DNA from: Desulfonatronospira thiodismutans ASO3-1
Lineage (GTDB): Bacteria; Desulfobacterota; Desulfovibrionia; Desulfovibrionales; Desulfonatronovibrionaceae
Assembly: GCF_000174435.1 (NCBI RefSeq)
Contig: NZ_ACJN02000003.1
Span: 388,263-452,262, forward strand
DNA: 64,000 nt
Direction of reading: 5' to 3'
Positions 7,316 to 63,730 of the stretch are shown here, one piece after another; the first letter of the stretch is position 1; each line of letters starts with the position of its first letter. Made by a program: the position numbers and the translations under genes. A model generated the notes under the pieces. The model was not told where the DNA came from. It ran no database searches and was given only the letters and a program-made list of their open reading frames with translations.

Positions 7316-7834
7316 ACATCTCCTCCAAGGCATCTTATAAAGATTGCATGTTGAAATTATAAAATAGCATCATGGTAAGGGAAAATCAAGCCCTTTAACT
7401 CAAAGGAGACAACTTAACATAGAGATTTCTACGTAGGATCAGCAGTTTACCAAAAAGATGGGCAAGTTCTGAACATCCAAACCCGGGAGTAAGTCTAAAA
7501 AATATCCGCCTTGTAAAAGCAGGTCATGAAACTTAAAGACAGGCCAGCCTGTCTTGCCATGCATTGCCTGATGTGAGCAATCACGCGCAGTTATTACCCA
7601 TTTCAGGCTTGGTATGTTTTGGGCAATAAAGGCGGGTTTTTACCCATTTCATGCCTGGCCTGATTTGGGTAAAATGCTATCACTACAGCGAAACTTATGA
7701 CTGACCTCCGGGGACTGGCTCTCCCCGCACTTATTTTTTCCAATAAAACCAAAATCATTTGTAATAAAAATAAGTGCGGGGGTGCCTGTCCCCAATTGAG
7801 GCAGGTATAATATTTTATAAGCTTCGCTGTAGTA
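7316..7834. other. Repeat-bearing intergenic region
   Basis: Without a recognised gene. It contains GACAGGCCAGCCTGTC (7538-7553, a 16-bp palindrome). Two tandem, imperfect units of TTACCCATTTCA...TTTGGG follow at about 7589-7623 and 7637-7672. Then comes the GGGGAC palindrome at 7710-7793, which is bracketed by ACTACAGCGAA (about 7682) and TTCGCTGTAGT (about 7826). This resembles a small element with its own terminal repeats. Confidence 0.6.
7710..7793. repeat. GGGGAC...GTCCCC palindromic element, copy 1
   Basis: GGGGACTGGCTCTCCCCGCA and TTATTTTTTCC pair with AAAAATAAGTGCGGGG and CCTGTCCCC at the other end. Related to the copies at 33754-33831, 57810-57911 and 63604-63684. The outer bracket TTCGCTGTAGT also recurs near 63480. 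Confidence 0.75.
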
Positions 7835-17602: not shown

Positions 17603-17625
17603 TTTAAAAGATGTAATTATTAACC

Positions 17626-17821
17626 ATGGTCCGGGGACTTTGCAAACAGGACGTAAAAACTCACTCCAAGGAAGCTTAAATCAAAACCTATACACGGGTT
17701 TAATATCCAGGATATTTTCTAATATCATGCTTTGAATCAAATTCGGTGTCTTACGGTTTTGATTAACGCTTCCTACGTCGTTCAGACAGTTTACGCCCAG
17801 TTTGCAAAGCCCCCGGACCAT
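17626..17821 (-). mobile_element. 200-bp terminal-inverted-repeat element, copy A
   Basis: Ends ATGGTCCGGGG (17626-17636) and CCCCCGGACCAT (17810-17821). The inverted arms run about 65 bases with mismatches: TTTGCAAACAGGACGTAAAA against TTTACGCCCAGTTTGCAAA, then GAAGC..AAATCAAAACC against GGTTTTGATTAACGCTTCC. No coding capacity, so a MITE-like element. Copies B and C (24434 and 54499) lie in the opposite orientation. It separates paaK from purE. Confidence 0.8.
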
Positions 17822-17904
17822 AAATCTGCAAGTTTATAGCTGGATTGTGCAGCTTGAACAGGTGGTGAATAGCTATAAAAAACCAGCAATCAGGAGTACA
17901 AAAC

Positions 17905-24433: not shown

Positions 24434-24635
24434 CCAGGGGCCGGGGGTTCGGCAAACTGGGCGTAAACTGTCTGAGCGACGTAGGAAGCGTTAATCAAAA
24501 CCGTTAAACACCCAGCTTGATTCAAAGCATAATATAATTGAATATTTTCTGGCTGAAAAAACTTGAAGAGGTTTTGATTTACGCTTCCTTGGAACGAGTT
24601 TTTACGTCCTGTTTGCCGAATTTCCGGACCACTGG
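24434..24635 (+). mobile_element. 200-bp terminal-inverted-repeat element, copy B
   Basis: Left CCAGGGGCCGGGGGTTCGGC and right GCCGAATTTCCGGACCACTG are the outer ends. Inside, GGAAGCGTTAATCAAAACCG faces GGTTTTGATTTACGCTTCC. It shares its ends with copies A and C, but the middle (TTGATTCAAAGCATAATATA) is mostly different. It fills the space between divergent lptD and phoH. The remainder (24636-24894) holds no recognised gene. Confidence 0.8.
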
Positions 24636-26370: not shown

Positions 26371-26395
26371 ACCCTAAAAAAATCTAAAGCAGGCT

Positions 26396-26646
26396 ATGCC
26401 CGCAACCCAAGCGAAAAATTTACCCTTGGCCACTTAACTGTCTATTCTTTCGCTTATCATCGGTATCGGGATCGGGATCGGGGTCGAAGTCTGAATCAAA
26501 TCCGGTAGGCAAAGTCATGTAAAAAGCTGCCCGGTATTTTCGATACCGATTCCGATACCGACACCGACCCCGACAAGAGTGGAAAATTCCAGCGCCATAG
26601 CACAAATTTTTCTTTTTTTATGACAAGGTTTCAGGAGTAAGTCACT
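26396..26646 (+). repeat. 250-bp direct repeat with hexamer hairpin, copy 1
   Basis: It runs from ATGCCCGCAACCCAAGCG to TTTCAGGAGTAAGTCACT. The core is a long hairpin: GGTATCGGGATCGGGATCGG (about 26461-26480) against GATACCGATTCCGATACCGA (about 26540), in 6-base steps. Copy 2 at 31690-31938 is closely similar over its entire length, in the same orientation. The psd ribosome site (CAGGAG) appears to lie in its 3' end. Confidence 0.85.
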
Positions 26647-31646: not shown

Positions 31647-31689
31647 AGGCGCACTGCTCCGCAAATATCCACTGTCTGTAATGCGGGCC

Positions 31690-31938
31690 ATGCCCGCAAC
31701 CCAAGCGAAAAAGTTACCCCTGACCATTTACTGTCTATGCTTACGCTTATCATCGGGGTCGGTATCGGTATCGGGGTCGAAGTCAGAATCAAATCCGGTA
31801 GGCACAGTCATGTAAAAAGCTGCCCGGTATTTTCGATACCGATTCCGATACCGACCCCGACCCGGACAAAGGCGGAAAAATCCAGCGCCATGGCTCAAAT
31901 TTTTCTTGTTTTTTGTAGCAGGGTTTCAGGAATAAGTC
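31690..31938 (+). repeat. 250-bp direct repeat with hexamer hairpin, copy 2
   Basis: Same ends and orientation as 26396-26646. GTATCGGTATCGGGGTCG faces CGATACCGATTCCGATACCG. The whole 31647-31968 gap between convergent leuD and the TtuA-like gene is this element plus short flanks, with GCGGGCCATGCCCGC at its left edge. No gene seen. Confidence 0.85.
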
Positions 31939-33623: not shown

Positions 33624-33723
33624 TTGAACAATTGTTGTCAGTTAATGGTTAAAGAAAAAAGCCTGAATTAACTGCCCTGCCCCACTTAACAATCAACCTG
33701 GTTGCGGGCGAAGCCCCTTTACC

Positions 33724-33877
33724 GTAACCATTCAGAGGGCAGATACCGGCCAGGGGGACAGTCCCGCACTTATTTTTTGAAGAACCATTTTCAGCTGTTG
33801 GCATTGGAAAAATAAGTGCGGGACAGTCCCCTGGCCTTGTGCCATCAGTCACCACCGAGGTTCCCCTGAATGGTTAC
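33724..33877 (-). repeat. GTAACCATTCAG hairpin with nested insert
   Basis: GTAACCATTCAG (33724-33735) pairs with CTGAATGGTTAC (33866-33877). Inside is the GGGGACAGTCCC palindrome at 33754-33831. Compared, inverted, with the uninterrupted copy at 46887-46948, the extra material is 33753-33840, flanked by GCCA at 33749-33752 and 33841-33844. It lies between the receiver gene and the end of mltG. Confidence 0.8.
33754..33831. repeat. GGGGACAGTCCC palindromic element, copy 2
   Basis: GGGGACAGTCCCGCACTTAT at the left is inverted at ATAAGTGCGGGACAGTCCCC. Almost identical in its arms to 63604-63684; the 30-base middle (about 33778-33810, TTTTCAGCTGTTGGCATTGG) is also similar. Confidence 0.8.
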
Positions 33878-33892
33878 ATTTACCGGACCAAG

Positions 33893-46871: not shown

Positions 46872-46886
46872 ATTCAAAGATTTGGA

Positions 46887-46948
46887 GTAACCATTCAGTG
46901 GGACCTCGGTGGTGGCTGATGGCCGGTATCTGCCTCCTGAATGGTTAC
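46887..46948 (+). repeat. GTAACCATTCAG hairpin, uninterrupted copy
   Basis: GTAACCATTCAG (46887-46898) pairs with CTGAATGGTTAC (46937-46948). Loop part reads ACCTCGGTGGTGGCTGATGG and CCGGTATCTGCC. This is the empty-site counterpart of 33724-33877. It lies 16 bases after the regulator stop. Confidence 0.8.
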
Positions 46949-47116
46949 GATTTGGACCGTCCATATCTGCCTGCGGGAGCTATTGCACCTGCTCAGGCCC
47001 TCTTCAGGCTGTATAAAGTCCTGATGAGCGCGGCAACAGGCTGCAAAGATTAAACATTTCTCCAGGCAGTCACTGATAGATCAGCCTTACAAACCTATTT
47101 AACCAGGGGAAGACTT

Positions 47117-48454
47117 ATGGATGTTTTGTTACTTTCAAGACTTCAATTCGCCATGACTACCTTCGTCCATTTCATTTTCGTCCCCCTGACTCTTGGCCTG
47201 TCTCTGCTGGTGGCCTACATGGAGACCAAGTTCATCCGCACCGGTGACGAAACATACAGGCGCATGGCCAAGTTCTGGGGAAAACTCTTTCTTATCAACT
47301 TTGCTCTGGGAGCAGTCACCGGAATTGCCTTAGAGTTCCAGTTCGGAACCAACTGGTCCAGGTATTCAGCCTATGTAGGTGACGTTTTCGGGTCTTTGCT
47401 GGCCATAGAGGCCACCATGGCCTTTTTCCTGGAGTCCACCTTCCTGGGCGTCTGGATTTTCGGCTGGAAGAAGCTCCCGCCCAAACTGCACAATGCCAGC
47501 ATCTGGCTGGTGGCCCTGGCGGCCAATCTTTCCGCATTCTGGATTATTATGGCCAACGGCTGGATGCAGAACCCTGTGGGCCATTTGATGGGAGACGGCC
47601 GGGCCGAACTGGCAAGCTTTATCCAGCTGGTAAGCAACGAATTCGCCTGGCAGCAGTTCATCCATGTCCTGAGCGCCTCCTACGTCCTGAGCGGTTTCTT
47701 TGTCCTGGGCATTTCCGCCTGGCACCTGGCCAGGGGGTCCCATGTGGACTTCTTCCGGAAATCATTTCGTATCGCCGCTCCGTTCACCCTGGTCTTCGCC
47801 CTTGTGGTGGTCGTCCATGGCCATCACCACGGCTCCACGGTGGCCAAGTATCAGCCGGAAAAGCTGGCGGCCATGGAATCCCACTGGGAGACCCGGACCA
47901 ATGCCCCGCAGTACCTGCTGGTCATCCCTGACCCGGCCAATGAAGGCAACAGGCTGGAACTGCTACCCATCCCAGGAGGGCTTTCCATGCTGGCCTATCA
48001 TTCCTTTGATGCCGAGGTAACCGGTCTCAAGGACTTTCCGGAAGAGGACCGCCCTCCTGTCTGGGCGACATTTATGTCTTTTAGAACCATGGTGGCCCTG
48101 GGCATGCTCTTTCCCGTGCTGGCTGCCTGGGCCTGGATAAGGCGTAAAGACCCGGCCTCTTCCCCCAGGATGCTCAGGCTTCTGCCCTGGATTATTCCGC
48201 TGCCCTACGTAGCTGTCCAGCTGGGCTGGATAGTGGCTGAGATGGGTAGACAACCCTGGATTGTTTACGGAATGATGCGCACCGAAGAGGCCTTTTCGCC
48301 GGGTATAACCACCGGACAGGTGGCTGGTTCTCTGGCCGGCTTCTTCGCCATCTACGGACTCCTGGTGGCCCTGTGCATATTCCTGTTGTCCAAATACGGG
48401 CGTAAAGGCCCGGCCCCGGCCGAGTCCGGGGAAGAAACCGCAGGGAGCAACTAA
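47117..48454 (+). CDS. cydA: Cytochrome bd oxidase subunit I
   Basis: Quinol oxidase haem subunit of 445 residues. LSRLQFAMTTFVHFIFVPLT carries the axial His near residue 19; FLINFALGAVTGIALEFQFG and LAIEATMAFFLESTFLGVWI are conserved helices; VAEMGRQPWIVYGM is the family GRQPW motif. The Q loop is short, so it is of the shorter CydA/CioA type. GGGGAAGACTT ribosome site. Followed 72 bases later by cydB. Helps in oxygen defence of anaerobes. Confidence 0.95.
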   Translation: MDVLLLSRLQFAMTTFVHFIFVPLTLGLSLLVAYMETKFIRTGDETYRRMAKFWGKLFLINFALGAVTGIALEFQFGTNWSRYSAYVGDVFGSLLAIEATMAFFLESTFLGVWIFGWKKLPPKLHNASIWLVALAANLSAFWIIMANGWMQNPVGHLMGDGRAELASFIQLVSNEFAWQQFIHVLSASYVLSGFFVLGISAWHLARGSHVDFFRKSFRIAAPFTLVFALVVVVHGHHHGSTVAKYQPEKLAAMESHWETRTNAPQYLLVIPDPANEGNRLELLPIPGGLSMLAYHSFDAEVTGLKDFPEEDRPPVWATFMSFRTMVALGMLFPVLAAWAWIRRKDPASSPRMLRLLPWIIPLPYVAVQLGWIVAEMGRQPWIVYGMMRTEEAFSPGITTGQVAGSLAGFFAIYGLLVALCIFLLSKYGRKGPAPAESGEETAGSN

Positions 48455-48526
48455 TGGCCTTTATCAATGAAAAATCAAGTTTCAACTGCATGCTGTGCAG
48501 GTTCATAATTAAACTGGAGGTATCCC

Positions 48527-49552
48527 ATGCTTGAGACCACCTGGTTTTTGCTCTGGGGAATATTGTGGGCAGGCTATTTCGCCCTGGACGGATACGATTT
48601 CGGCCTGGGCATAAACATGCCCCTGCTGGCTGAAAGCGAGACCGACAAACGGGTTATGTACAACGCGGCCGGACCTTTCTGGGACGGCAACCAGGTCTGG
48701 CTGATAACCGCAGGCGGAGTGACCTTTGCCGCATTCCCGGCCACTTATGCGGTCCTGTTCAGCAGCCTGTACACCCCTCTTCTTCTGCTTCTCTTCGCAC
48801 TCATTTTCAGGGGGGTGTCCTTTGAATTCAGGCGCAAGGTGGACAGTGATTCCTGGAGAAGGTTCTGGGACGGATGCAATGTACTGGGCAGCCTCATCCC
48901 GGCCCTGCTCTTCGGAGTGGCCTTTGCCAATATCTTTATGGGCATTCCCCTGAATGCTCAGCAGATAAATGAAGGCAACCTTCTGACCCTTCTGAACCCT
49001 TACGGCCTGGCCGGAGGAATACTTTTCGTCCTGCTCTTTTCCATGCACGGCAGCCTGTGGCTGGCTGTCAAGTCCATGGGCGACATGGAAAGAAAAGCTG
49101 TTAACCTGGCCAACAGGGTCTGGGGTGCGGTGCTGGTCATGGTGGTCGCTTTTCTGGCCCTGACTGTGATGTACACCAATCTGTTCGACAATTATGCCGC
49201 CAACCCGCTTTTGCTGATAATACTGCTCATACCCGTGGCCGGGCTGGTGCTGGTAAAGATGTTTCTGCATCAAAGGGTGTACTGGAAGGCCTGGGCCTCT
49301 TCCGCCGCCACCATTATCGGGGTGACCATGTTCGGAGTAATAGGCATGTATCCCAAACTGCTGCCTTCAAGCATTGACCCGGACTTCAGCATGACCATCG
49401 CCAACTCCGCCTCCAGCACCCTGACCCTGCAGATTATGCTGGGAGTGGCCCTGGTCTTCTGCCCCCTGGTCATTGCCTACCAGACCTGGGTACATCTCAA
49501 ATTCAGCCACAAGATAACCGACGAGGACCTGGAGTACGAAGAGGCTTATTAA
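48527..49552 (+). CDS. cydB: Cytochrome bd oxidase subunit II
   Basis: 341 residues with about eight membrane helices. LDGYDFGLGINMPLLAESET, GPFWDGNQVWLITAGGVTFA, FPATYAVLFSSLYTPLLLLL and FRGVSFEFRRKV are the CydB signatures. ATG follows ACTGGAGGTATCCC. A hairpin (49581-49639) and a toxin-antitoxin pair separate it from cydD. Confidence 0.95.
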   Translation: MLETTWFLLWGILWAGYFALDGYDFGLGINMPLLAESETDKRVMYNAAGPFWDGNQVWLITAGGVTFAAFPATYAVLFSSLYTPLLLLLFALIFRGVSFEFRRKVDSDSWRRFWDGCNVLGSLIPALLFGVAFANIFMGIPLNAQQINEGNLLTLLNPYGLAGGILFVLLFSMHGSLWLAVKSMGDMERKAVNLANRVWGAVLVMVVAFLALTVMYTNLFDNYAANPLLLIILLIPVAGLVLVKMFLHQRVYWKAWASSAATIIGVTMFGVIGMYPKLLPSSIDPDFSMTIANSASSTLTLQIMLGVALVFCPLVIAYQTWVHLKFSHKITDEDLEYEEAY

Positions 49553-49580
49553 AATGAAAATTGGGCACTGCCCGCAACCA

Positions 49581-49639
49581 TAACCATTCAGGGGGTCCTC
49601 GGTGGTGATTACTGGCACCAGACCTCCCCTGAATGGTTG
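49581..49639 (+). repeat. GTAACCATTCAG-type hairpin, short copy
   Basis: TAACCATTCAGGGGG and CCCCTGAATGGTTG pair around TCCTCGGTGGTGATTACTGG and CACCAGACCT. It lies 29 bases after the cydB stop, so it may end or protect the cydAB transcript. The core matches the copy at 62083-62154. Confidence 0.75.
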
Positions 49640-49647
49640 ATTTTTTG

Positions 49648-49676
49648 TTGACATTATACCATCTGGTAGCATATAA
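49648..49676 (+). promoter_or_regulatory. Promoter with operator of the HigBA-like genes
   Basis: TTGACA (49648-49653), a 17-base spacer, ATATAA (49671-49676). The spacer contains a dyad TACCA-TC-TGGTA (49657-49668), a likely operator for the antitoxin. ATG 49683 is six bases beyond the -10 box, so the transcript would start almost at the initiator codon. Confidence 0.65.
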
Positions 49677-49682
49677 AAAGTT

Positions 49683-49961
49683 ATGGCCTGGTCGGTTCGA
49701 GTCAAGAAAAAAGCTGTCAAAAAAGCACGGGAACTGCCAAGGACAGCTAAAGAAAACCTCTTTGCTCTTATGCGGGAAATGGAAGAATCCGGGCCAGTAA
49801 GAGGAAACTGGAAAAACTATTCAAAGCTCGGTAAGAACCGGCACCATTGCCATATTAAAGGCGGCCATCCGGCCTATGTGGCCGTTTGGGAAGAAAGTGA
49901 AGGAGAGATCAACCTTATTGAGGTAACTTATGCAGGCACTCACGAAGACGCACCCTACTGA
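49683..49961 (+). CDS. RelE/HigB-like toxin
   Basis: 92-residue basic protein: MAWSVRVKKKAVKKARELPR, then GPVRGNWKNYSKLGKNRHHC and HIKGGHPAYVAVWEESEGEI, closing YAGTHEDAPY. The pattern of a lysine-rich start and a HxGGHPAYVA core fits the RelE/ParE/HigB ribosome-dependent nuclease superfamily. Toxin first, antitoxin second is the HigBA order. It overlaps the next gene by 32 bases. No ribosome site precedes ATG, in line with a leaderless message. Confidence 0.82.
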   Translation: MAWSVRVKKKAVKKARELPRTAKENLFALMREMEESGPVRGNWKNYSKLGKNRHHCHIKGGHPAYVAVWEESEGEINLIEVTYAGTHEDAPY

Positions 49962-50283
49962 GGCCATTGAGCTACGCATCACAGGCCCCAGGGATAAAAA
50001 GGATGAAGTGCTTCGCGAAATTAAAAAGCATGGCTATACTGACTCAAGCGACTCCATCCCCTGGAGAGAGCTCTTCCAGGAGTTTGAAAATGAACCCGAA
50101 TACAGCGTGGCCCTGCGTGGAGCGCGTAACAGGGAAGGACTTACTCAGACAGAACTTTCCAGGCTGACTGGGATTCCCCAGGGGCATATCTCCAAGATGG
50201 AGAACGGCAGGATGGAGATAGGCAAGGAACGGGCCAGACGTCTGGCTGAAGTTTTGAACATGGATTACCGGGTCTTTCTTTAA
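49930..50283 (+). CDS. Xre-family antitoxin (HigA-like)
   Basis: 117 residues. The helix-turn-helix is at the C-terminal half: LRGARNREGLTQTELSRLTG, IPQGHISKMENGRMEIGKER. The N-terminal part (IELRITGPRDKKDEVLREIK) may contact the toxin. GAGGTAACTT sits five bases before ATG. It would bind the dyad in the upstream promoter. The pair lies inside the cydAB-cydDC cluster. Confidence 0.85.
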   Translation: MQALTKTHPTEAIELRITGPRDKKDEVLREIKKHGYTDSSDSIPWRELFQEFENEPEYSVALRGARNREGLTQTELSRLTGIPQGHISKMENGRMEIGKERARRLAEVLNMDYRVFL

Positions 50284-50316
50284 GTTCCTGGGTCCGTATT
50301 ATTCGAGCAGCTGATT

Positions 50317-51993
50317 TTGTCCCAGACCCAGGCACTGAAATGGCTAAACAGCTTCAGGAAAACCGCTGGTACAGCCCTGGCCCTGTCCATAGGCCTGAAC
50401 CTGTGTGCGGGCATCCTGCTCATTGTCCAGGCCGGAGCTCTGGCCTGGAGCGTACACCAGGTGGTTTTTGAAGGCCTGGGACTTGGCCGGGTCATGCCCG
50501 CCCTGTGGCTTATACTGGCCCTGGTGCTGGCCAGGGCCATGCTTGTCTGGTACGGATCAAGCCTGGCCGGACAGGCTGCGGCCCGGACCAAGGAAAAAAT
50601 CCGCCGGCAACTCCTGGAGCACCTGTCCCGGGCCGACCCCTCGGGGTTGACCAGTCATTCCACGGGACAACTGGTACACTTGAGCACCGACGGGGTGGAA
50701 GAAGTGGACGGATACTTTTCCGGATATCTGCCCCAGATGGCCCTGGCAGCCATGCTTCCCCCGGCAATCCTGGTCTTTATCCTGCCCCTGGACTGGATAT
50801 CCGGCCTTATCCTTCTGTTTACCGCCCCCTTTATTCCCTTTTTCATGATTCTCATCGGCCGCCGGGCCCAAAAGCTGAACCAGCAGCAATGGCAAAAAAT
50901 CACCCGCCTGACCCACAGATTCTTAGACGCCATTCAGGGCCTGACCACCCTCAAGATATTCAATGCCGGCAAAAGAGAGGCCCGGGTGGTGGATGAAATA
51001 TCTAAGGAATACGGCAAAAGCACTCTGTCTGTTTTGCGGGTTGCATTTTTAAGTGCCCTGATTCTGGAATTCATGGCTACAGTCAGCATAGCCGTGGTGG
51101 CGGTGATTATTGGATTCAGACTTCTCTGGGGTGAGATTGATTTTATGGCCGGTTTTTTCATTCTCATCCTGGCCCCGGAGTTCTACCTGCCTCTGCGCAA
51201 CCTGGGCAGCAGGTTTCATTCCCGGGTCTCGGCCATTGCAGCTGCGGAAAACATGATGCAACTAATGAGTCTTCCCCGGCGCCGGGATAACACCGGAACA
51301 ACCATCCCCAGCTTCTCCCGGACCAGAATACGCTTTGAAAATGTAAGCTTTGGTTACGCTCAAGACCAAGAGGCCGTGCACAATCTCGATTTTATAACCC
51401 CGGCCCCTGGCCTGACCTGCCTCACCGGACCCAGCGGCAGCGGGAAAACTACGGTCCTGCGCCTTGTCCTGGGTCTTGTAACACCCCGGCAGGGCCAAAT
51501 ATATGTCAATGACGCGAACCTGTCGCATCTAAACAATGAAGCCTGGCTCAGGCATGCGGCCTATCTTCCCCAAAAGCCTCACCTGCTTGGCTTGAGCGTT
51601 CTGGAAAACATCAGACTGGGCAATGAAAACGCCTCTGCACAAGAGGTGTACCTGGCCGCCCAGAAGGCCGGCATCCACCAGGAGATTCTGGCCCTGCCCC
51701 ATGGCTATGCAACCGTTCTGGGAGAAGACGGCCAGGACCTGTCCGGAGGCCAGCGCCAGAGGGTGGCCCTGGCCAGGGCCTTTGTCCGCCCCTGCCCCCT
51801 GGTGCTGGCTGATGAGCCTGGAGCCGGTCTGGACCGGAAAAACCGGAATATAATTCACGCCGCCCTGCTGGAAATGGCTGAAGAAAGAACAGTTATAATA
51901 TGCACCCATGACCAGGATGTACTCCCCGGGGCGGACCTGGTAGTACAGCTGAAGGACATGCCCCCCGGGCAGGATATGGTGCAGCGGCCATGA
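50317..51993 (+). CDS. cydD: CydD-type ABC exporter subunit
   Basis: 558 residues: six-helix membrane domain then an ATPase with GPSGSGKTTVLRLVLGLV (Walker A), LSGGQRQRVALARAFVRP (signature) and LVLADEPGAGLD (Walker B). CydDC exports cysteine and glutathione to the periplasm, needed for cytochrome bd assembly. TTG 50317 is assumed, 33 bases after the antitoxin stop; the ribosome site is poor. It overlaps cydC by four bases. Neighbouring cydA and cydB support the assignment. Confidence 0.92.
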   Translation: MSQTQALKWLNSFRKTAGTALALSIGLNLCAGILLIVQAGALAWSVHQVVFEGLGLGRVMPALWLILALVLARAMLVWYGSSLAGQAAARTKEKIRRQLLEHLSRADPSGLTSHSTGQLVHLSTDGVEEVDGYFSGYLPQMALAAMLPPAILVFILPLDWISGLILLFTAPFIPFFMILIGRRAQKLNQQQWQKITRLTHRFLDAIQGLTTLKIFNAGKREARVVDEISKEYGKSTLSVLRVAFLSALILEFMATVSIAVVAVIIGFRLLWGEIDFMAGFFILILAPEFYLPLRNLGSRFHSRVSAIAAAENMMQLMSLPRRRDNTGTTIPSFSRTRIRFENVSFGYAQDQEAVHNLDFITPAPGLTCLTGPSGSGKTTVLRLVLGLVTPRQGQIYVNDANLSHLNNEAWLRHAAYLPQKPHLLGLSVLENIRLGNENASAQEVYLAAQKAGIHQEILALPHGYATVLGEDGQDLSGGQRQRVALARAFVRPCPLVLADEPGAGLDRKNRNIIHAALLEMAEERTVIICTHDQDVLPGADLVVQLKDMPPGQDMVQRP

Positions 51994-54422: not shown

Positions 54423-54498
54423 TGCCCTGAGTAAATAAATGGATTGTAATTTTTCACCACCTGCTAAAGCTGGACAATCCAAGCGTCTACTTGCAGAT

Positions 54499-54697
54499 CC
54501 ATGGTCCGGGGGCTTTGCAAACAGGGCGTAAACTGTCTGAACGACGTAGGAAGCGTTAATCAAAACCGTCAAACACCGAATTTGATTCAAGGCGTGTTAT
54601 TAAAAATATACTGGCTTTCAATACCGTGTATAGGTTTTGATTTACGCTTCCTTGGAGAGAGTTTTTACGTCCTGTTTGCAAAGTTCCCGGACCATGG
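54499..54697 (+). mobile_element. 200-bp terminal-inverted-repeat element, copy C
   Basis: CCATGGTCCGGGGGCTTTGC starts it, and CAAAGTTCCCGGACCATGG ends it. Inner arms GGAAGCGTTAATCAAAACCG and GGTTTTGATTTACGCTTCC match copies A and B. It lies between the divergent Mut7-C and yjbQ genes. Its sequence extends the Mut7-C frame upstream and would mislead start selection. Confidence 0.85.
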
Positions 54698-54733
54698 TGA
54701 AAAATGGCATAATATTACATGAGGAGGTAAATC

Positions 54734-63560: not shown

Positions 63561-63730
63561 GTAACCATTCAGGGGGTGCCGTAATCACGCCTCTGGCGTG
63601 ACCGGGGACAGTCCCGCACTTATTTTTTTCTGATGGACAATTTTTGGCTGTTGGCGTTGGAAAAATAAGTGCGGGACTGTCCCCAGGCCTGGTGCCAGCA
63701 ATCAATACCGAGAAACCCCTGAATGGTTAC
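63561..63730 (-). repeat. GTAACCATTCAG hairpin with nested insert, second copy
   Basis: GTAACCATTCAGGGGG (63561-63576) and CCCCTGAATGGTTAC (63716-63730) enclose TCACGCCTCTGGCGTGA (63585-63601) and the GGGGACAGTCCC palindrome (63604-63684). CTGGTGCCAGCAATCAATAC after it corresponds, inverted, to the core of the short copies. Confidence 0.8.
63604..63684. repeat. GGGGACAGTCCC palindromic element, copy 4
   Basis: GGGGACAGTCCCGCACTTAT and ATAAGTGCGGGACTGTCCCC are inverted arms around about 40 bases (TTTTTGGCTGTTGGCGTTGG). Near-identical arms to 33754-33831. Confidence 0.8.

Follow-up and report, generated by a model that had tools for sequence, protein, structure and literature searches.

The window analysed here, a 64,000-nucleotide stretch of the Desulfonatronospira thiodismutans ASO3-1 genome, holds what appears to be one palindrome in two lengths, and the question it raises is how the two are related: was an inner hairpin inserted into the shorter form, or has it been lost from the longer one?

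Filled and short states at one locus

Reverse complemented, the 154-bp copy at 33724-33877 aligns end to end with the 62-bp copy at 46887-46948 except for a single 92-bp block, which consists of the 88 bases 33753-33840 and one GCCA; this tetranucleotide occurs on both sides of the join in the longer, “filled” copy and once in the shorter. A first-pass annotation had described the inverted hairpin as equal to the 62-bp copy plus 88 bases, with GCCA flanking the join. Alignment and flanks bear this out, although “equals” is slightly strong, the arms being identical at 57 of 62 positions (five differences, read by eye from the alignment). The filled strand also folds far more stably than the short form (-14.5 kcal/mol for the latter). 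The features are listed below by window coordinates, with strand where one applies; family 1 and its K centre are described in later sections.

33724-33877, minus strand: filled family-1 MITE-like element, 154 bp, with K centre (alignment; DNA fold -47.4 kcal/mol, z -10.3)
33717-33724: left copy of a worn 8-bp target duplication, CTTTACCG, its G common with the element end (read directly)
33878-33885: right copy of the worn 8-bp target duplication, ATTTACCG, 7/8 equal to the left copy (read directly)
33749-33752: GCCA, first direct repeat, within the hairpin foot (GGCCA/TGGCC) (sequence, filled-copy flanks, fold)
33841-33844: GCCA, second direct repeat, immediately outside the hairpin foot (sequence, filled-copy flanks)
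33754-33765: first palindromic motif, GGGGACAGTCCC
33820-33831: second palindromic motif, GGGACAGTCCCC
33763-33822: K hairpin, CCCGCACTTATTTTT...AAAAATAAGTGCGGG
46887-46948, plus strand: short (“empty”, 62-form) copy, whose orthologue in the sister species is filled (C275:4286-4439)
46879-46886: left 8-bp target duplication, GATTTGGA, of the short copy 46887-46948
46949-46956: right 8-bp target duplication, GATTTGGA, of the short copy 46887-46948
49581-49639, plus strand: further short copy with another junction (retains ACCAGACC), short in the sister species too
63562-63729: filled K-centre copy, where the sister species has a clean empty site with one copy of the target duplication

That these are filled and empty states of one nested palindrome, as had been proposed, holds at a single orthologous locus. 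A sister species, represented by a Desulfonatronospira MAG (G006), has a filled 154-bp element in place of the window's 62-bp copy; the 8-bp duplication, GATTTGGA, is the same, and the flanks are 98-100% identical. The 4,780-bp G006 contig C275 aligns to window positions 46920-51233 at 98%, and the other flank agrees over 341 bp. An unprompted comparison of the two species returned, at this locus, 92 bp present in G006 and absent from the window, with a 4-bp overlap of GCCA. Among 16 present/absent differences between the species, one concerns the inner hairpin alone, and most of the others with family-1 sequence are whole elements. The sequence examined has three family-1 loci common to both species: one is filled in both, the focal one differs, and one (49581) is short in both, which indicates that short forms are stable.

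The filled copy in G006 is nearest to the window's copy at 33724 in both its insert (0.95) and its arms (0.92), the best of 20 K copies for each, as expected if a filled element arrived whole. The arms of the short copy in the window's own genome (G000) carry two private changes, with no foreign tract visible by eye. No outgroup in the genus holds the focal locus (two of seven genomes match, both of them the ones already compared), so the direction of change there rests on the pattern across the family, from which we infer loss. For a single site, a library or assembly slip at one hairpin is also possible.

A MITE-like outer element

The end sequence TAACCATTCAG has 268 exact occurrences (131 + 137) in the 4.1-Mb genome, compared with 0 for a reversed control, and the motif GGGGACWGTCCC has 442 (224 + 218) genome-wide, compared with 2 for its control. 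Contig C1 has, in the 800 kb surveyed, 54 pairs of ends no more than about 300 bp apart. The paired copies, which we call family 1, are mostly 42-200 bp long and multi-copy, with inverted ends and no coding sequence. For 50 of the 54 C1 end pairs (those >230 bp being excluded), the 8 bases outside GTAACC...GGTTAC show 79% identity, compared with 30% when shuffled, and are exactly repeated in 23. Whole elements are present in one and absent from the other of the two species, with a single target copy at clean empty sites; six such sites, involving forms 58, 87, 156, 171, 176 and 168, have at least 100 bp of flank at >=90% on both sides. The constant 8-bp duplications, together with the clean empty sites that the sister species shows, mark the outer palindrome as a MITE-like, non-autonomous transposon with GTAACCATTCAG ends, and the REP label first given to it does not fit. 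This transposon moves as a whole. It usually takes the form of a nested palindrome, made up of arms, GGCCA-GGGGACTGTCCC, a centre (J or K) and GGGACTGTCCCC-TGGCC.

Family 1 resembles the bacterial MITEs of DDE transposases in being short and multi-copy, with inverted ends and a constant 8-bp duplication. The IS66 family duplicates 8 bp, and the IS66 of this genome (GTAAGCGTCC, 8-bp GTTATTGT) shares with family 1 both the GTAA start and the 8-bp duplication, but for the one IS66 type compared the ends (GTAAGCGTCC.. and GTAACCATTCAG..) differ beyond GTAA, and on that mismatch we rejected IS66 as a proven mover of family 1. End pairs with matching 8-bp target duplications occur up to 12 kb apart; the two long pairs that we opened contain an Rpn-like nuclease-type ORF and host genes (names assigned by eye), with no DDE gene recognisable by eye and no autonomous GTAACCATTCAG-ended element. 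In the literature naming Desulfonatronospira with inverted repeats we found no description of these elements, and related searches returned general REP, MITE and slippage papers. These elements form a new family, nested and MITE-like, in which the hairpin has most likely been lost again and again.

A second MITE-like family, with CACTACAGCGAAACTTAT ends and duplications of about 4 bp (e.g. TTAG and TTAA, by eye), is found in many places in G000 and G006 (e.g. C1:562642-562798 and window 7681-7834), and its exchangeable centres are TTTTGCCG..CGGCAAAAG, the K hairpin, or GGGACTGTCCC doublets and singlets. At G000 C1:531269-531475, a family-1 element lies inside a family-2 element; G006 has family-2 copies without family 1. 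Three long palindromic repeats (CCATGGTCCGGGGGCTTTGCAAACAGG...) of a multi-copy element, 83-88% similar, lie at window positions 17611-17878, 24434-24631 and 54444-54710, and a related copy at C1:382182-382438 has GTAACTATTCA ends and an exact 8-bp duplication, CTGGAATT. The window also holds a 240-bp repeat pair, 87-90% alike, at 26385-26622 and 31679-31915.

Junctions, arms and probable hairpin loss

We catalogued 106 elements in G000 and 46 in G006, among them 53 short and 93 filled copies; the G000 catalogue is non-random, with 800 kb of contig C1 near-contiguous and the remainder selected around hits. The 53 short copies have many different junctions, and some retain ACAAGG/ACCAGGCC or one GGGGACTGTCCCC, which are parts of the supposed insert. 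Junctions were classified for the 39 short copies with a good filled parent (the 14 without one being excluded): 14 are GGC|CG, 9 have one GGGGACWGTCCCC, and 16 are others. Microhomology of at least 3 bp is found in 23 of these 39 (mean 3.6), compared with 5.5% of random cuts (mean 0.73); it occurs in 5 of the 16 other junctions, and in five of nine 88-bp forms the microhomology is 3 or less against the best-scoring parents. Subfamily A (18 copies examined) also shares CGGT and GGCC, which are as long as TGGC, but the GGC|CG (TGGC) junction is the preferred one; GGC|CG is thus commoner than repeat length alone explains, which tells against slippage pure and simple.

The annotation had read the repeated GCCA as a 4-bp duplication left by an insertion, to be checked by whether the flank is always duplicated. 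It is so in only part of the family: among the 58 of 93 filled copies that were parsed (35 unparsed ones being excluded), the flank repeat is at least 4 bp long in 32 and only 3 bp (GGC) in 26. These shorter flanks, and the varied junctions of the short copies, are outcomes of the kind that the annotation itself had named as refuting an insertion. Filled and short states have, moreover, switched repeatedly and independently. On a tree of the arms of these 58 filled and 15 empty copies (62 columns), a single clade of empties is rejected (p-AU 2.7e-11), the 15 “GGC|CG” rows including C1:1179151, which has microhomology ACTG and by that criterion is a different junction. The empty state changes 13 times, of which at least nine changes are forced by starred branches, the safer figure given that the tree is weakly resolved with many open forks; a shuffled label is no more scattered (13.7). 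The empty copy C1:681611 and the filled copy C1:508696 match at every arm position (61/61).

The filled/short pair probably reflects recurrent loss of the inner hairpin through slipped-strand deletion between the TGGC/GGC repeats at its foot. Loss is favoured because junctions, flank counts, arm tree, microhomology, folds and the nearest-copy result combine; slippage as its mechanism is what we infer from them. In the orientation of the short copy, the stem (GGCCA...TGGCC) includes the right TGGC, and the left TGGC is found a few bases beyond it. A polymerase at work on the strand would stall a few bases inside the hairpin foot, and the nascent end would unpair and re-anneal to the other TGGC (or GGC) just past the hairpin; the intervening roughly 92-114 bp would be skipped and one TGGC would remain, and the 62-bp form would arise in this way from a filled family-1 element. 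Loss between two GGGGACTGTCCCC copies would likewise give the 88-bp form. The repeat that remains is one TGGC in the 62-form and one GGGGACTGTCCCC in the 88-form. An established route to hairpin loss is deletion between direct repeats at the foot, which, as outlined in PMC4134008, needs a hairpin and short repeats and leaves one repeat behind. Family 1 likewise has a hairpin and short foot repeats, one of which is left after loss, but compared with the system outlined there the loss would be a repeated natural event in a transposon family.

Nested cores and alternative readings

The centres of family 1 behave in two ways. J centres follow the arms (Mantel r 0.51, 0/2000 shuffles as high), and K centres are uncorrelated with them (Mantel r 0.015, 886/2000 shuffles as high). 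The sequence examined contains 87 K or K-like hairpins: 28 lie in GGGGACWGTCCCC and 45 in GGGGACWGGCWC modules, many of the latter in the second MITE-like family with its CACTACAGCGAAACTTAT ends, and the 14 elsewhere include those in a cobalamin riboswitch and in loops P3 and P12 of RNase P RNA. The K hairpin segregates independently of the MITE arms and recurs in unrelated elements. Tentatively, K (CCC[C]GCACTTA[T/C]TTTT...AAAA[A/G]TAAGTGCGGG[G]) might be a separate mobile module, planted in and removed from other palindromes, a possible but rather doubtful reading in which its hosts would be the cobalamin riboswitch, RNase P RNA (P3 and P12) and, in two unrelated MITE families, the two GGGGAC modules. 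K may move by itself or be exchanged by recombination. Targeting of hairpin tips by K was considered and rejected, flank complementarity at the 14 other-context sites being not clearly above shuffles (85/1000 as high).

In the RNase P RNA (L097:6811-7343; G000 C1:786811-787343), a K-like hairpin, CCCCGCACTTACTTTT...AAAAGTAAGTGCGGGG, occupies P3 and is also twice nested in P12; that of G006 has a short P3 and, in P12, a single hairpin of this kind, and those of other relatives have related GCAC(T/C)(T/C)ACTT hairpins in P12. The cobalamin riboswitch (L075:5401-5633; G000 C1:285401-285633) has a K-type hairpin in a variable loop.

A further candidate for removing the hairpin is a Y1 (HUH) transposase, which would cut at the left and right TGGC of a REPIN-like hairpin and rejoin the flanks, the repeat then being a pair of cleavage sites and no duplication. 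The annotation's remark that HUH enzymes leave no duplication loses force here, because the same pattern results when excision or deletion acts on two TGGC copies already in place. Family 1 does resemble the REPINs of RAYT/TnpA_REP as presented in PMC3116915: two inverted motifs and a spacer form one hairpin, singlets arise by spacer loss, and what is lost is a hairpin plus a short 5' tail (ACAA in family 1), ending inside the right stem, an asymmetry of the same sense as in REPIN excisions in P. fluorescens SBW25. One junction is strongly preferred (14/39), and Y1_Tnp genes are present, with 31 matches in the window's own genome and 4 in G006. Excision by such an enzyme is nonetheless unlikely. 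The family-1 motif head is GGGGACWG, and the modules, which reside inside MITEs, carry GGGGAC without the GTAG/CGTC type of tag given for REP/RAYT systems in the sources drawn on (PMC3733652, PMC8266576); the other junctions (16/39) would be left unexplained; and at the 16 of 35 Y1 loci examined (12/31 own, 4/4 G006) GGGGACWGTCCC flanks only one 57-aa fragment (L131), with no motif-bordered RAYT gene among them, so that a RAYT as owner of GGGGACWGTCCC was rejected for these loci, this nearby fragment aside. The full-length Y1 loci L133-L135 are flanked by quite different palindromes.

Those three loci (G000 C1:99074-102394, 1277642-1280962 and 1199223-1202540) have full-length Y1 genes bordered by palindromes of their own, e.g. 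CACATTTCGCGTCAAACGCGAAATGTG, and are candidate RAYT/REP sets unrelated to family 1.

Gene conversion, by which the short state would have been made once or a few times and then spread to other members by recombination over the arms, is slightly less likely again. The lack of correlation between K inserts and arms implies that exchange between copies occurs, and such exchange could also carry the empty state; J/K exchange requires at least six forced changes, and C1:275548 seems to be a mosaic by eye, with left and right arms from different subfamilies. J centres, however, track the arms, arms of about 25-37 bp are short for homologous recombination, and the private changes in the focal arms come with no sign of a foreign tract.

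In the 800-kb census, 16 motif groups fall outside paired family-1 ends, and by eye these are worn family-1 copies, family-2 copies or odd singles. Insertion of a GGGGACAGTCCC element into a 62-bp palindrome with duplication of 4 bp, which would account for the existence of filled and empty alleles of one locus and for the TGGC repeat that is exact in 32 of the 58 parsed filled copies and at the focal site, is the least probable reading and is rejected as the main one on account of the mixed junctions, the 3-bp flanks in 26 of 58 and the scattered empties: the flanking repeat belongs to the hairpin stem, short copies retain pieces of the supposed insert, at least nine independent switches would all need the same spot, and no free unit with a ACAAGGCC spacer is found among the 16 groups.

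With recurrent hairpin loss as the probable account, the pair shows how a filled and an empty site with a neat short repeat can be misread, as the repeat may be the endpoint of a hairpin deletion and not the scar of an insertion. If K is a mobile module, GGGG-ACWGT-CCCC would be the family-1 empty site, two ACWGT copies would be a 5-bp duplication, and the genome would hold Russian-doll elements with exchangeable cores. With two comparable species and nested palindromes of this kind in the hundreds, the genus lets one measure directly how often and by what rules hairpins are naturally lost and hairpin cores are exchanged between transposons.
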